In this document: piece after piece, positions 20,161-26,958 of the stretch
Layout: each line of letters begins with the position of its first letter
Position numbering within the stretch: the first letter of the stretch is position 1
Origin: Flavobacteriales bacterium UBA1494
GTDB lineage: Bacteria > Bacteroidota > Bacteroidia > Flavobacteriales_E > Vicingaceae
NCBI GenBank assembly: GCA_905182175.1
Contig: CAJJAT010000001.1
Coordinates: 62,001 to 126,000 of the forward strand
DNA length: 64,000 bases
Direction: 5' to 3'
Position numbers and translations under genes: made by a program
The notes under the pieces: model-generated
Told to the model about the DNA's origin: nothing
The model's database searches: none
Seen by the model: only the letters and a program-made list of their open reading frames with translations

Positions 20161-21093
20161 TTGAAGGCAAAACAGTTATTTCAAGAATTTTCAGAAAAGC
20201 ACGAGACACAACTTCCTTTTTCACTTCAATACAGATGGTGGAATGAGGTAGTGAAGTACAGCTGGGATGTTGCCATTTTACTAAATGGAGACATGGTCTA
20301 CGGTATCATGCCCTATTTTATTCGAAAAAAAGGACCTTGGGTGTTTATTGCAAATGCTCACTTTACACCGTATACAGGTCCTTTTTTAATTTATCCTGAA
20401 GGTCAAAAAACTGCTAGCCGCATAGCTTTTGAGCATAAGGCGCATCAAGATTTGGTAGCGCAACTTCCTCCTTTTTCTGAGTTTTCACAGAATTTTCATT
20501 TGGGCTTTCAAAATGCTCTCACCTTTCAGTGGAATGGTTTTACTGAGACAAATAGATATACTTATATACTTCCCCTAGAAAAGTCGGAAGATGATCTTTG
20601 GAAAGGCTTGCGAGAAAACACAAGAAGACAAATTAAAAAGGCTAAAAAAACAATTAATTACAGTACTTCGGAAGATCCTAAATTATTACAGAAGCTTTTG
20701 AGCGACTCTTTTGAAAATAAAATTGAGTCGAGCTATTTTGAACGTTTAGTAGTATTTATAGATAAATACAAGTGTGGTAAAATGTGGAAAGCTGATGAAG
20801 GTAAGGAAACACATTCAATTCTTTTTTGCATGTGGGACAGCACTAGCGCATATTACTTAATTGGAGGAAACGCTTCAGCCCATAAAAATTCAGGAGCTAT
20901 GAGTTTACTTACTTGGGAAGCGGTTAAGTATTGTAAAAGCATCCAATTACCTATTTTCAACTTTGAAGGCAGCAGTGTTGCCTCCATAGAAAAGTACTTT
21001 AGGGGGTTTGGCGGTGAGTTGGTATCATTCCGCAGAATTGAAAAGAAGAACTCCACGAGTTTACAGGTAGCTAAAAAGTTAAAAGGAGGTTGA
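20161..21093 (+). CDS. FemAB/GNAT-like acyltransferase family protein
   Basis: A 310-residue soluble protein with TTG start at 20161; no earlier ATG is in frame and the next ATG would remove conserved sequence. It resembles the BioF2-like/FemAB acetyltransferase group: an N-terminal half with RWWNEVVKYSW and TPYTGPFLIYP, the LRENTRRQIKKAKK helix (about 155-170), and a C-terminal GNAT fold with YYLIGGNASAHKNSGAMSLLTWEAV and FNFEGSSVASIEKYFRGFGG. FemAB-type enzymes transfer aminoacyl or acyl groups in cell-envelope assembly. The acceptor here is unknown. The following 177 bp hold no gene. Confidence 0.75.
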   Translation: MKAKQLFQEFSEKHETQLPFSLQYRWWNEVVKYSWDVAILLNGDMVYGIMPYFIRKKGPWVFIANAHFTPYTGPFLIYPEGQKTASRIAFEHKAHQDLVAQLPPFSEFSQNFHLGFQNALTFQWNGFTETNRYTYILPLEKSEDDLWKGLRENTRRQIKKAKKTINYSTSEDPKLLQKLLSDSFENKIESSYFERLVVFIDKYKCGKMWKADEGKETHSILFCMWDSTSAYYLIGGNASAHKNSGAMSLLTWEAVKYCKSIQLPIFNFEGSSVASIEKYFRGFGGELVSFRRIEKKNSTSLQVAKKLKGG

Positions 21094-21270: not shown

Positions 21271-22494
21271 TTATTTAATCTTCACCCTTTTTCCCATTGC
21301 TCCAAAAGCAGTCATAAAAGAAAAAGCAATGAAGGCAGCAGCCAATACAAATGGTGCACCCGGAAAAAAGTATGCAAACCCGTCTTGCGTGAAATAAGCA
21401 AAAATGGTAGTCATGGCAATTGGACCAATTACAGCGGTTAAGGAAATAAGAGATGTTAAAGCCCCTTGCAGTTCTCCTTGCTCGGTATCTTTAAATTTAT
21501 TGGAAACAATACTCTGCAAAGTAGGCGTAGCGATTCCTCCAAAACAATACGGCAAAACTGAAGCGAACAACAACCAACTTTGGTTTACAAAAGCAAATAA
21601 TAATAGACCTACAAACCACGATAAATAACCAATAAATACAGTTTTCCTCTCTCCCCACCAACGTACACTGTGTTTGACAAATAACCCTTGTACAACAGCA
21701 ACAACTACTCCTACAATACCTAACGAATAGCCCACCATAGATTCTGTCCAACCAAATTTTAACATGCCATAAAATGGCCAGGTAGACTGCACAGCATAAC
21801 CAGCTAAATACAAAAGAAAAAATGCAACTGCTAATTTAGCCACCACATTACTTCTTGTTAATAAGTGAAAGGAACCTAAAGGGTTCGCCTTAGCAAGTTC
21901 AACTGTTTGTTTTCGTTTGCTCTTTTCTAACGACTCAGGAAGTACAAAAATACCATACAAGAAATTTAAGAGAGTTAAACCTCCTGCAATGAAAAACGGA
22001 TATTTCACATCATATTCTCCTGCTATTCCGCCTAAGATTGGCCCTACTATGAAACCCAATCCAAAAGCAGCTCCAATTAATCCAAAATTTTGAGCTTTAT
22101 TTTCAGGAGTGCTTATATCAGCAATATAGGCTGTTGCTACTGTAAAACTTGCTCCACATAGGCCTGCTAAAATTCTGCCTAAAAACAACCAAAACAAACT
22201 TGGAGCATAGGCATGCACAAAGTAATCTATTCCCAGACCAAAAAGTGCGATCAATAAAATCGGCTTTCGGCCAAATTTATCACTCAATACGCCCAGTACT
22301 GGAGCAAAAAAGAACTGCATAATAGCGTAAGAGAAAATCAACCACCCTCCTATTTTAGAAGCTTCGCTTAACCCAACACCGTTCAAGCTTTCAATAAGTT
22401 TTGGAATCACTGGAATTATGATTCCAATGCCGATTACGTCAATTAAAATGGTTGCAAAAATAAAACCCAAAGAGGCTTTGCTATTCTTTTTCAT
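21271..22494 (-). CDS. MFS transporter, TetA-like (DHA1) drug:proton antiporter family
   Basis: A 407-residue transporter with 12 predicted membrane helices. I use ATG 22494 (MKKNSKASLGFIFATILIDVIG). Motif A is GVLSDKFGRKPILL between helices 2 and 3, and the helix 1 motif is DVIGIGIIIPVIP. The layout matches the TCR/Tet group, usually annotated as tetracycline or multidrug resistance transporters. No tetracycline repressor lies nearby, so a housekeeping exporter is as likely as a resistance determinant. The gene is divergent from the phosphotransferase at 22592. Confidence 0.9.
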   Translation of the reverse strand: MKKNSKASLGFIFATILIDVIGIGIIIPVIPKLIESLNGVGLSEASKIGGWLIFSYAIMQFFFAPVLGVLSDKFGRKPILLIALFGLGIDYFVHAYAPSLFWLFLGRILAGLCGASFTVATAYIADISTPENKAQNFGLIGAAFGLGFIVGPILGGIAGEYDVKYPFFIAGGLTLLNFLYGIFVLPESLEKSKRKQTVELAKANPLGSFHLLTRSNVVAKLAVAFFLLYLAGYAVQSTWPFYGMLKFGWTESMVGYSLGIVGVVVAVVQGLFVKHSVRWWGERKTVFIGYLSWFVGLLLFAFVNQSWLLFASVLPYCFGGIATPTLQSIVSNKFKDTEQGELQGALTSLISLTAVIGPIAMTTIFAYFTQDGFAYFFPGAPFVLAAAFIAFSFMTAFGAMGKRVKIK

Positions 22495-22500
22495 GAGCGG

Positions 22501-22508
22501 CAAAAGTA
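22501..22508 (-). promoter_or_regulatory. Candidate extended -7 box (TACTTTTGCCG) for the MFS gene
   Basis: TACTTTTG reads on the minus strand 6 bp before the ATG at 22494 and is followed by CCG. The tRNA-Lys and tRNA-Ser boxes in this window have the same extension. No TTG is found at -33. Confidence 0.45.
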
Positions 22509-22591: not shown

Positions 22592-24457
22592 ATGAAATCA
22601 CTTGTTAAAACCTACCTCAAATTTGCCCTAAAGCTTGCTTTGGCATTTTGGATGTTTAGTTTATTCAGAGTCCTGTTTTACGTATTCAACTCCAGTTATT
22701 TTCCTGACCCTGAATTTATCAACTTTTTAGGTGGTATTCGTTTTGATTGGATGACCATCTCTATTTTATACTTGCCATTTTTTGTATCTCTGTGGTTCTA
22801 TCCAAGATCAAATACCATTCTACAAAAGGGTTTGTTTCTGTTTTCAACAGTATTGGCGATTTTAACTAACGTGCTTGACTTCGGATACTTTAACTTTACT
22901 CAAAAACGAACTACCGCTGACCTATTTACTACCAAAGGGTTAGGAGAAGATGTTATGACACTGCTTCCGCAATTTGCGAAAGACTATTGGCATTTACTCG
23001 TATTGGCAATTATCTGCTTTTTTATACTGAAGCTGATGTATCAAAAAATAGAGACCATTAAAACAGAAAGACTCAATTGGAAGCGCTATATTTTGTTCGT
23101 TTTTCCAATTACTGTGCTCGTATTTATAGGGTTCAGAGGAGGTGTTCAGTTGAAGCCTTTAAACGTAATCCAAGCGTCTCAATACGCAAGTTCTCAAAAC
23201 ATCCCATTGGTATTAAATACCAGTTTTACCCTCATCAAATCTTTCTCTAAAGAAACAATTGAGGTTCAACATTTTTTCCCCGATGAAAAATTGGCAGCCA
23301 TTTATACTCCAGTTCAAAAAATACAGGCCAAAAGTGTTCCAGAGAAGCTTAATGTCGTTTTGATTATTGCTGAAAGCTTTTCTCAGGAATACATTGGATT
23401 CTATAACGGTGGTGTAGGCTATACTCCATTTTTAGATAGCTTAATGAATGAAAGTGTAGTCTTTATAAACTCTTTTGCGAATGGAAAAAAGTCAATTGAA
23501 GCTTTGCCTGCAATATTGTCTAGCATACCAACCTTAAGTAACAGAGCTTATATTTCTAGCGAATATGCTGGCAATACCATAGAGAGTTTACCTAAAACAC
23601 TCAAAAAAGAAGGCTACTCCTCGGCTTTTTACCATGGGGGCGCTAACGGTACCATGGGTTTTAAAGCTTTCACCCAAGTAGCAGGAATAGAAAAGTATTA
23701 CGGCAAAGAGGATTACCCCAACACTAATGACTACGACGGTAATTGGGGAATTTTTGATGAACCTTATTTGCAATATTGTGTGAAAGAATTCTCCGATATG
23801 CAAGCTCCTTTTTTTGGCGGAATTTTCACCTTATCCTCTCATCACCCATATACTATTCCTAAGCAGCACGTAAATAAATTTCCAAAAGGAGAGTTACCAA
23901 TTCATGAAAGTATTGGCTACACAGACCATGCATTAAGACAGTTTTTTAAATCGGCAGAAAAGACAACTTGGTTTGAAAATACCTTGTTTATCATAACAGC
24001 GGACCATACTCAAGCCGTATCAAATCCTAACTACAACAACTGGATTGGACTGTATAAAGTTCCGATTGCATATTACTGCCCTAAAATACTTCCTGCTAAA
24101 GTAATTGAAACCGTAACGCAACAGACTGACATTTTTCCAACCACCTTGGATTTAATTGGCTTCGAAAGTAAAATTTTGAGCTTTGGTAATTCCGCATTTT
24201 CAGGTTCCAAAGAATTTTCTATCAGTTACATAAATGGAATTTATCAGTTAATTAAAAAAGACTATTGCCTTCACTTTGATGGCGAAAAAGTGACCGGCTT
24301 GTTTAAGTGGGAGAATGGCAATCCATTCAAAGAAAATCTAATGAATAGCCCAGACATCGCCGTTCAATCAACGGAAAAGGAATTATCGATCTTCTTAAAG
24401 GCATATCTACAGCAATACCAAAGCCGAATAGTTTCGAACAACTTAACATATGAGTAA
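22592..24457 (+). CDS. LTA synthase-like membrane sulfatase/phosphotransferase
   Basis: A 621-residue protein with five N-terminal membrane helices (residues about 12-35, 52-72, 80-100, 132-150, 165-182) and an extracytoplasmic alkaline-phosphatase-fold domain from about 250. The first metal Glu is in IIAESFSQE (Glu261). The nucleophile position reads NGKKSIEALP, giving Ser301 where LtaS has Thr. The late metal site is ITADHTQA. The family (LtaS, OpgB, EptA relatives) transfers phosphoglycerol or phosphoethanolamine from phospholipid to sugars. ATG 22592 is preferred to the in-frame 22418 start, which runs through the divergent gene. The next gene, a diacylglycerol kinase, overlaps by 8 bp. 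Confidence 0.88.
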   Translation: MKSLVKTYLKFALKLALAFWMFSLFRVLFYVFNSSYFPDPEFINFLGGIRFDWMTISILYLPFFVSLWFYPRSNTILQKGLFLFSTVLAILTNVLDFGYFNFTQKRTTADLFTTKGLGEDVMTLLPQFAKDYWHLLVLAIICFFILKLMYQKIETIKTERLNWKRYILFVFPITVLVFIGFRGGVQLKPLNVIQASQYASSQNIPLVLNTSFTLIKSFSKETIEVQHFFPDEKLAAIYTPVQKIQAKSVPEKLNVVLIIAESFSQEYIGFYNGGVGYTPFLDSLMNESVVFINSFANGKKSIEALPAILSSIPTLSNRAYISSEYAGNTIESLPKTLKKEGYSSAFYHGGANGTMGFKAFTQVAGIEKYYGKEDYPNTNDYDGNWGIFDEPYLQYCVKEFSDMQAPFFGGIFTLSSHHPYTIPKQHVNKFPKGELPIHESIGYTDHALRQFFKSAEKTTWFENTLFIITADHTQAVSNPNYNNWIGLYKVPIAYYCPKILPAKVIETVTQQTDIFPTTLDLIGFESKILSFGNSAFSGSKEFSISYINGIYQLIKKDYCLHFDGEKVTGLFKWENGNPFKENLMNSPDIAVQSTEKELSIFLKAYLQQYQSRIVSNNLTYE

Positions 24458-25313
24458 AAAAATACTTTTTGTTGTAAACCCAATTTCAGGTATAAGAGGA
24501 AAAAAGATTGCTTTAGCACTTCTACAAACGGAGTTAAAACCAAGTACCGAGTATCAAGTTATTGAAACTGAACGAGCACATCATGCAACTGAACTGGCAG
24601 AAAAAGCAATTAAAGAAGGGTTTGACGCTGTTATTGCAGTTGGTGGCGACGGCACAGTAAACGAGATAGGAAAAGCCTTAGTTGGCTCTAAGGTAGCATT
24701 GGGGATACTGCCATTTGGATCAGGAAATGGTTTTGCTAGGCACCGTAAAATTCCAATAAATGCAAGAGAGGCAATTAAACTAATTAATAGATTCACAACC
24801 AAGAAGATAGATACAGCCACCTTAAACGAAGACGTTTTTTTAACTACAGCAGGTTTAGGTTTTGATGCCCATGTAGGTTGGAAATTCTCAGAAAGTGGTA
24901 GTCGTGGATTTCTAACTTACTCTCAAATTGCTATTAATGAATTTATTAACTACAAAGAAAAAGAGTATCAGTTAATAATTGATGGAAAAGAGTTAAACAC
25001 AAAGGCTTTTGTGCTAAGCATTGCAAATGGAGGACAATACGGTAATAATGTATGGATTGCTCCTGACGCTTCCATGGAAGATGGAAAATTAAACGTTTGT
25101 ATTATCAAACCTTTTCCAGCTCACTTTACCCCAGATATAGTTTTAAAATTATTTAGCAAGAGGCTTCATGCTTCCAAATATTACGAATCAATAGAAGCAA
25201 AAGAAATTAAGGTAATTAAAGCAGGAAAGTTTCATTTAGACGGTGAGCCTAGAGAAACGAATGAGGATTTAATCATTCGCATTGTGCCGAAGTCTTTACA
25301 CGTGATTTGTTGA
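24450..25313 (+). CDS. Diacylglycerol kinase-family lipid kinase (YegS/DagK type)
   Basis: A 287-residue cytoplasmic lipid kinase. The nucleotide site is GGDGTVNEIGKAL (GGDGT at residues 65-69), followed by ILPFGSGNGFARH and the C-terminal beta-sandwich with FHLDGEPRE. It phosphorylates diacylglycerol or a related lipid. Its start lies inside the end of the upstream phosphotransferase gene (8-bp overlap), so the two are co-translated. LtaS-like enzymes release diacylglycerol when they use phosphatidylglycerol, which this kinase could recycle to phosphatidate. That link is inference from context. Confidence 0.9.
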   Translation: MSKKILFVVNPISGIRGKKIALALLQTELKPSTEYQVIETERAHHATELAEKAIKEGFDAVIAVGGDGTVNEIGKALVGSKVALGILPFGSGNGFARHRKIPINAREAIKLINRFTTKKIDTATLNEDVFLTTAGLGFDAHVGWKFSESGSRGFLTYSQIAINEFINYKEKEYQLIIDGKELNTKAFVLSIANGGQYGNNVWIAPDASMEDGKLNVCIIKPFPAHFTPDIVLKLFSKRLHASKYYESIEAKEIKVIKAGKFHLDGEPRETNEDLIIRIVPKSLHVIC

Positions 25314-25407: not shown

Positions 25408-26958
25408 CTAATGAGGTGCTCGATCATCTTTGAACAAACTTTCCCTGTTGGTTGGCCTTAATTTACCTAGCCATTTAAACCCTTTGTAACGTAATTCAGT
25501 AACTGGATCAAGAGCTCCCATGGGGTGCATTGTTGCTTTTGGTTTTCTCAAAAATGTTATTGTTTCGATGCTTTTTTCACCCAATACAATTCTAATGTTG
25601 GCACTTTCTGCGACATTTACTCCAATAAACTTGTTTGCTTCATCTTGACCGTAATACGTAGTTTGGCCATTTCCTGTTACGTTAATCGTTTTTAATTTCC
25701 CTTCTTTAAAATAGCCAATCATATTTTTCCCTTTGATTTGATTGTACCGTAACTGATCGATTCGAGAAATGATAAAGGCATTCTTATCTAAATACAGACT
25801 GTGTATCTTATTATTCTTTGTCCGAATGCTAATACTATCAGCAGTCAACTGATTTTCTAAGGTCCACAAAACAGGGTTATAATATAACTTTATTGTGGAG
25901 TCTGATAAGGAATATGAAATAGAATCACAGGAACCTTGAAGGTCATTTTTGAAAATCTTGACACCATAATAAGCAAACAAGAACTGCGCACCTTCTTCTG
26001 TTCTGTACACTTTGAATGTATCCGCATGCATGAACAACGTATCCATATCAAAAACTTGCATCAACAAACTTTCATCTGTTACAATTGCGCTGTCTTTTTT
26101 CTCAAATAGTCTTGCGTGCCCGCCCGTTACCAAAAGGTTTTCGGCAGTATCTATAATCTGAACATTTCCATCAACTTTTCCAAAACCAGTATTTCTATCG
26201 TAATATAACGTATCTCCTTGAAGCCGTTTGCCATCAGTTAATATATAAGCGTTGCTATAATACCTTGACTGGTCAACCTTTGTATCGTACCATCCATTCT
26301 CGCAATAAATTAAGTTATCGTCTCCGGTTATGGTTGTTGGGCCTAAAAAAGTAACTACTTCGCTTAATGTGTTATAGTGGAGTGTATCGGATTTTACTAC
26401 ATATTCCGGATTGGTGAGAACAACGTTCTTCTTAAACAGAAACAAGGAACGGCCCATATTAAAATCACCGCGAACACTCTCTAATACTGTATTTTCTGTC
26501 GTACTGCGAATGACTGCGCCGGTGCTATAACTCGCAATGTCTTGAGCAATGCTGTACAACAAACGGTCGGTAATCAAATTAAAATCTTCCGTAACCAGAC
26601 GAACCTCTTTGCCGGTTACTGTGGCCAAATCGATATTTCCATCATAATGGAGAAAATCACCATACAAATTCAGCGATTGTTCTTTCTTAATTCTAACACT
26701 TCCAAAAGCATCTAAACTATTCGATTTACTGTAAAAGTCAGCGGAATCGCAGTACATAATAGTCCCTTTGTGTCTGAACTGAACATCTCCAACTAGCCGT
26801 TGAGCACTTTGTCCATTTTTTTCTATCCCATAAAGAACCCTTGCATTCAGTATTTCTATTTCACCCTTTTTCTGGCCCCAAGCAATTGCAGTGCAAAGAG
26901 AGAACAACAAGAGTAAGCCTTGAAATTTTACAAAAGAAGAGTTTAAGCGATCGCCCAT
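25408..26958 (-). CDS. OstA-like (LptA/LptD N-terminal family) envelope protein
   Basis: A 516-residue exported protein with signal peptide (FVKFQGLLLLFSLCTAIAWG). The mature part consists of repeated short beta segments (GDVQFRHKGTIMYCDSADFY, GSVRIKKEQ, LYGDFLHYDG, TYYGQDEANKFIG), typical of the OstA/LptA beta-taco fold that carries lipopolysaccharide across the periplasm. E. coli LptA is only about 185 residues, so this is the long Bacteroidota form. Its start overlaps the purA stop by 16 bp, giving translational coupling. The assignment to LPS transport is by family, not shown directly. Confidence 0.82.
   Translation of the reverse strand: MGDRLNSSFVKFQGLLLLFSLCTAIAWGQKKGEIEILNARVLYGIEKNGQSAQRLVGDVQFRHKGTIMYCDSADFYSKSNSLDAFGSVRIKKEQSLNLYGDFLHYDGNIDLATVTGKEVRLVTEDFNLITDRLLYSIAQDIASYSTGAVIRSTTENTVLESVRGDFNMGRSLFLFKKNVVLTNPEYVVKSDTLHYNTLSEVVTFLGPTTITGDDNLIYCENGWYDTKVDQSRYYSNAYILTDGKRLQGDTLYYDRNTGFGKVDGNVQIIDTAENLLVTGGHARLFEKKDSAIVTDESLLMQVFDMDTLFMHADTFKVYRTEEGAQFLFAYYGVKIFKNDLQGSCDSISYSLSDSTIKLYYNPVLWTLENQLTADSISIRTKNNKIHSLYLDKNAFIISRIDQLRYNQIKGKNMIGYFKEGKLKTINVTGNGQTTYYGQDEANKFIGVNVAESANIRIVLGEKSIETITFLRKPKATMHPMGALDPVTELRYKGFKWLGKLRPTNRESLFKDDRAPH

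Follow-up and report, generated by a model that had tools for sequence, protein, structure and literature searches.

In Staphylococcus aureus, DgkB recycles the diacylglycerol (DAG) that LtaS releases, and dgkB is indispensable only as long as lipoteichoic acid is produced; in Escherichia coli, DgkA does this for the DAG of the glucan pathway (PMC10865820). EptA/MCR enzymes have been linked with dgkA in the same recycling sense, for example in mcr-3-dgkA (PMC7559476). In Porphyromonas gingivalis, the O-glycans carry near-stoichiometric glycerol phosphate, the late addition of which is due to an unknown enzyme (PMC8729774), and no stage of addition has been assigned to the rare modifications of Bacteroidota O-glycans (PMC12871550). 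Here we analyzed a 64,000-nucleotide stretch of DNA from Flavobacteriales bacterium UBA1494 (hereafter, the window), in which the gene for a predicted LtaS/OpgB-type phospholipid head-group transferase overlaps that for a YegS/DgkB-type lipid kinase. We consider it probable that the pair is a conserved operon in which a phosphotransferase that decorates the envelope comes with its own lipid recycling; its donor would more likely be phosphatidylethanolamine (PE) than phosphatidylglycerol.

OpgB (MdoB), the phosphoglycerol transferase I of E. coli, resembles the transferase of the pair in its periplasmic domain of the alkaline-phosphatase fold, with GFDxxYG and WGxxD motifs, and its DAG by-product is recycled by a DAG kinase, as may also be the case for the pair. 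OpgB differs in its Thr nucleophile, its phosphatidylglycerol donor, and its periplasmic glucan acceptor; moreover, opgB of strain K-12 has no adjoining kinase gene, and E. coli relies on the small membrane kinase DgkA. The LtaS/DgkB system of Firmicutes shares with the pair the five membrane helices, the domain fold, the metal ligands, and the substrate His, together with a soluble DgkB-type kinase that would likewise serve DAG recycling, whereas the pair has Ser instead of Thr, lacks the equivalents of Asp349, Trp354, and Arg356, and belongs to a diderm host without a recognizable PgsA. The EptA/MCR enzymes with dgkA are similar in that a head-group transferase gene is coupled to a DAG kinase gene (PMC7559476) and in the probable donor, PE, but their transferase belongs to another subfamily (profile probability 20%) and their kinase to an unrelated family. 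The closest solved structure by both sequence and fold is VP1736 of Vibrio parahaemolyticus (PDB ID: 3lxq; about 23% identity), a protein of unknown function that has Ser at the aligned nucleophile position and the W-G-x-x-D-E motif in common with the transferase.

A literature search, which had most subscription journals outside its reach, found no paper on the pair in Bacteroidota. The preliminary description of the locus had called the decoration undescribed. This held for the gene pair in the literature searched, but the principle of pairing has precedents in LtaS/DgkB, OpgB/DgkA, and EptA/MCR-DgkA, and O-glycans of P. gingivalis are known to bear phosphoglycerol (PMC8729774).

Gene layout and domain assignment

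The transferase gene occupied positions 22592–24457 (+ strand, 621 aa) and the kinase gene positions 24450–25313 (+ strand, 287 aa), both identified from open reading frames (ORFs) and domain searches. The stop codon of the transferase (TAA, 24455–24457) lay inside the kinase gene, the ATG of which was at 24450, and the ORF coordinates thus gave the 8-bp overlap of the two frames (24450–24457, + strand) that had been read originally. This overlap suggested that the two genes are translationally coupled. The transferase start at 22592 was chosen over the mechanical ORF start at 22418 because alignments of orthologues began at Met1. An LptA/OstA-type gene adjoined the pair at 25408–26958, which supported a diderm envelope. 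Elsewhere in the window, there were genes for a FemAB/GNAT-like protein (20161–21093, + strand) and for an MFS exporter near Tet(A)/(B)/(C)-type efflux proteins (21271–22503, – strand; 340.7 bits against a family cut-off of 475).

The transferase contained a single domain, PF00884 (Sulfatase; residues 254–523, E = 1.5e-40), and was the sole LtaS-like gene product of the genome, in which one further weak sulfatase-domain ORF was present elsewhere. In NCBIfam, LtaS scored highest (100 bits), followed by phosphoglycerol transferase I (46 bits); neither came near the equivalog cut-offs, which were 970 bits for LtaS proper and 572 and 574 bits for the phosphoglycerol transferase I equivalogs of OpgB proper (matched at 45.9 and 41.8 bits). 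In profile comparisons, E. coli OpgB was the closest match tested, with a probability of 98.8% and the GFDxxYG and DWGfyDd motifs in common, and E. coli EptA reached 20.3%. The EptA model was absent from the Pfam and NCBIfam matches, and an EptA-type transferase was ruled out on sequence by its low profile probability. Among solved structures, the closest relatives by sequence were VP1736 (1.4e-36) and then the LtaS proteins of Bacillus, Listeria, and Staphylococcus.

The kinase showed all the features of the YegS/DgkB-type class, namely a DAGK_cat domain (PF00781, 6.8e-29), a YegS_C domain (PF19279, 1.7e-19), a GGDGT nucleotide loop, and a DGE catalytic motif; TIGR00147 was over its cut-off, and Gly65–Gly68 and Asp264–Gly265 were invariant. 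It was the product of the sole DAGK_cat gene of the genome. DgkA was also encoded there, and recycling therefore need not depend on the paired kinase alone. In eight family genomes with the pair PF01219 was absent, which made the paired kinase the main recognizable DAG kinase in these genomes. On the kinase tree, several of the second DAGK_cat copies present in paired genomes grouped apart, in their own clade.

When the modeled fold of the kinase was compared with known structures, sphingosine kinase and DgkB were tied (Z 29.6 and 28.9); the fold thus failed to separate DAG kinases from sphingosine kinase and left the lipid substrate unproven. The tie would suit a pathway in which phosphoethanolamine or another head group is moved to ceramide, giving a phosphosphingolipid, while the kinase either recycles DAG or phosphorylates a sphingoid lipid, and Bacteroides do make ethanolamine phosphoceramide (PMC8791184; PMC10191378). 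However, by sequence the DgkB-type kinases scored far above sphingosine kinase, and the gene neighborhoods gave no pointer to ceramides, so we regard such a pathway as very unlikely.

Fold and active site of the transferase

The AlphaFold2 model of the transferase (pLDDT 92.1) combined five helices at the N-terminus with an alkaline-phosphatase domain. The predicted membrane helices comprised residues 2–32, 42–69, 76–103, 117–154, and 163–181, and the predicted periplasmic domain residues from about 231 to 616, which is the architecture of the LtaS/OpgB-type class (COG1368-like). In a fold search with VIA-align 2, the top match was 3lxq (Z 46.6, 379 residues, 2.5 Å), followed by LtaS and LtaP (Z about 39, with 39.6 for LtaS; 361–368 residues, 2.8–3.0 Å), and YejM and the sulfatases ranked below LtaS with Z scores of 31.6 or less. 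The formylglycine motif of sulfatases, Cys/Ser-x-Pro-x-Arg, was absent at the nucleophile, where the transferase reads S301-I-E-A-L. Clustering with plain sulfatases, which the preliminary description had named as evidence against its own interpretation, was thus not what we found, and a plain sulfatase was ruled out by the missing motif and by the ranking of LtaS folds over sulfatases.

All the metal ligands and the Ser/Thr nucleophile of the LtaS/OpgB-type class were present. Glu261 (codon at 23372–23374, + strand), at the position of the metal ligand E255 of LtaS, was conserved in 53 of 53 orthologues, as were Asp471 and His472 (24002–24007, + strand), which correspond to the ligands D475 and H476. 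The substrate-side His417 (23840–23842, + strand; LtaS H416) was invariant, as were Trp385 and Asp389. At the nucleophile position, Ser301 (23492–23494, + strand), within a GKKS sequence, was aligned to the Thr of OpgB and to T300 of LtaS. This substitution had been pointed out in the preliminary description; the alignment bore it out, but 52 of the 53 orthologues had Ser and only one had Thr, and hence Ser is an uninformative family trait and a peculiarity of this protein was ruled out.

This conservation also bore on the question of whether the protein might lack activity and serve as a regulator like YejM/PbgA instead of as a transferase. The layout of five helices and a sulfatase fold is the same, and YejM/PbgA aligned in the fold search, but since all the metal and nucleophile positions were invariant or nearly so, and YejM scored a Z of 31.6 against 39.6 for LtaS, we find such a role scarcely credible.

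Glycerol phosphate is bound in LtaS by H347, D349, W354, R356, and H416 (PMC4973235). From the alignment with LtaS, the corresponding pocket loop of the transferase was HGGANGTMGF (residues 348–357; 23633–23662, + strand). The two histidines, H347 and H416, were retained, and D349, W354, and R356 were replaced by Gly350, Met355, and Phe357, respectively; the full residue set of LtaS proper was therefore not present. In the comparison with LtaS, OpgB, and EptA that had been proposed for the active site, the metal ligands were thus shared with LtaS, its glycerol-phosphate residues were partly lost, and the profile was closer to OpgB than to EptA.

Distribution of the pair and its gene neighborhoods

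The interpretation of the locus had been made dependent on co-occurrence of the two genes in other Bacteroidota. In the family loci first fetched by tblastn, the kinase gene lay directly 3' of the transferase gene in 29 of 29 cases, with transferase identity down to 44%, and the pair was also present in six more family genomes, making 35 besides that of UBA1494. It was further found in 11 other families (f54, f55, f57, f59, f60, f65, f68, f69, f70, f72, and f78), in a Bacteroidales metagenome-assembled genome (L061), and in five more families (f5, in genome G396, f85, f86, f89, and f91). In total, 17 coded families had the pair, that is, its own family (f1) and 16 others of the class, a recurrence that makes chance adjacency untenable. 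Among 31 measured pairs, 20 overlapped and the remainder were 0–81 bp apart, gene starts being mechanical. When the pairing label was placed on the transferase tree, it required 7 changes against 18.8 in shuffles, and on the kinase tree 8 against 16.7; pairing is clustered on both trees, the deep forks of which were poorly resolved.

There were about 31 unpaired orthologues in 19 coded families, including most genomes of f5, a flavobacterial-type family, and genomes of other classes. In loci L064 and L070, an SUI1 gene followed the transferase gene directly, at 29 and 5 bp, respectively; no DAGK_cat was found in the L064 genome, and in the L070 genome it was located elsewhere. The simplest reading is that the kinase gene has probably been lost from between the transferase and SUI1 genes in these two loci. 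An SUI1/eIF1-type small-protein gene was located 3' of the pair in about 17 loci (L061–L117, gene +2), and on the 5' side a similar number had a divergent gene whose sequence, judged by eye, was that of a dehydrogenase E1. Neither adjoined the pair in the genome of UBA1494, and the flanks beyond the pair varied between families and within its own genus.

In genus g32, of the flavobacterial type, the transferase gene was accompanied by a different kinase gene. In all six of its transferase-bearing genomes (L156–L161), dgkA (PF01219) was beside the transferase gene, which began about 55 bp 3' of it, in the order peroxiredoxin, dgkA, transferase, and an ftsK-like gene (ftsK read by eye), and DAGK_cat was missing from five of the six. 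DgkA is a small membrane kinase of a family unrelated to DAGK_cat. We counted this arrangement as one independent event, and the exchange of DAGK_cat for dgkA supported the view that the kinase recycles DAG.

These data also allowed us to weigh whether the two genes are merely co-inherited, one for a housekeeping enzyme of the envelope and the other for a lipid kinase of general function, without any substrate-product link. The wider synteny with the SUI1-type and dehydrogenase E1 genes would explain part of the conservation, and many orthologues are unpaired; however, the flanks outside the pair differ between families and in its own genus, the paired genes mostly overlap or nearly do so, and dgkA was placed independently beside the transferase in g32. 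On balance, mere co-inheritance appears improbable.

Several loci deviated from the common arrangement. In some family genomes, a second transferase copy was found just upstream of the pair (L111:3767-5707:+ and L116:1370-3307:+). Copies of this type grouped on the tree with unpaired orthologues of other families, which suggests that they were acquired separately or stem from an old duplication. Two unpaired genomes (L088 and L078) had tandem or near-tandem distant transferase paralogues with 25–26% identity. In L077, the transferase frame was open for 1457 aa; Pfam showed no second domain, and an apparent fusion was rejected as a probable chance open frame.

Donor lipid and proposed recycling

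In the proposed mechanism, the membrane-anchored transferase would act in the periplasm, where Ser301 would accept the phosphorylated head group of a glycerophospholipid and Glu261, Asp471, and His472 would hold the metal ion for the transfer. The head group would then be handed to an envelope acceptor and DAG released, and on the cytoplasmic side the soluble kinase would convert DAG to phosphatidic acid, which would return to phospholipid synthesis. The release of DAG is predicted here from the pairing of the genes and from the related enzymes. Recycling of DAG by the paired kinase, as predicted from genome comparison, is well supported, and the coupling to it that had been proposed at the outset fits both the conserved pair and the DgkA exchange in g32. 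An exception to the recycling rule was G172, a phylum-level relative with a transferase but neither a DAGK_cat nor a DgkA match, in which PgsA was over its cut-off. Candidate acceptors include the general O-glycan of Bacteroidota, LPS, and ceramide; because of the glycerol-phosphate O-glycan of P. gingivalis and the rare O-glycan modifications without an assigned stage, the O-glycan would be a fair first candidate.

As for the donor, the genome had two matches to CDP-alcohol transferases, PssA over its cut-off and one that fitted no specific model. PgsA was over its cut-off in none of the 52 class genomes, including that of UBA1494, and in four of the five genomes of other classes. No cardiolipin synthase was seen in the genome, the sole PLDc_2 ORF of which (702 aa) had the size of a polyphosphate kinase; these absences come from an assembly that is 96% complete. 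In B. thetaiotaomicron, the glycerophospholipids are reported as PE and phosphatidylinositol (PMC8791184). Most families with the pair thus seem, from their gene content, to be without phosphatidylglycerol, the donor lipid of the best-known relatives, and phosphatidylglycerol, the lipid that LtaS consumes according to the preliminary description, is an unlikely donor here, since neither PgsA nor cardiolipin synthase was recognizable in the genome. For the same reason PE is the likeliest donor, and we favor the movement of phosphoethanolamine over that of phosphoglycerol. Of the two head groups originally considered, phosphoethanolamine has become the better bet, and phosphoglycerol from phosphatidylglycerol has lost support.

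Two points stand against PE: OpgB and LtaS, the nearest characterized relatives, use phosphatidylglycerol, and the second CDP-alcohol transferase (L129:1120-1917:-) could make this lipid. We therefore also considered a phosphoglycerol transferase that uses phosphatidylglycerol from the L129 enzyme to decorate a periplasmic or surface glycan, with the DAG recycled by the kinase. The closeness to OpgB in profile, the second rank of LtaS and LtaP in fold, the near-stoichiometric glycerol phosphate of P. gingivalis O-glycans (PMC8729774), and the existence of the L129 gene in the genome would all agree with it, but PgsA was over its cut-off in 0 of 52 class genomes, there was no cardiolipin synthase-like ORF, and the replacement of W354 and R356 of LtaS counted against a phosphatidylglycerol donor, which together render it rather doubtful.

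The pair, found in at least 17 Bacteroidota families, predicts a common, overlooked envelope decoration derived from phospholipid. It may bear on the enzyme that adds glycerol phosphate to P. gingivalis O-glycans, and it offers a small handle, with only two genes, a single by-product to expect, and the clear question of which phospholipid pays. More tentatively, an enzyme of the LtaS/OpgB lineage could have switched its donor from phosphatidylglycerol to PE, or to the lipid made by the L129 enzyme, for a new decoration on O-glycan, LPS, or ceramide in Bacteroidia without recognizable phosphatidylglycerol synthesis.

The L129 enzyme (contig C12), a CDP-alcohol phosphatidyltransferase of 265 aa outside the specific models, had the archaeal AF2299 enzyme as its nearest solved structure. 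Matches of similar size were present in many class genomes, and the product of the L129 enzyme could be the donor lipid. In genome G012 (L098), an unpaired transferase orthologue had a CDP-alcohol transferase match as its close neighbor on the opposite strand.
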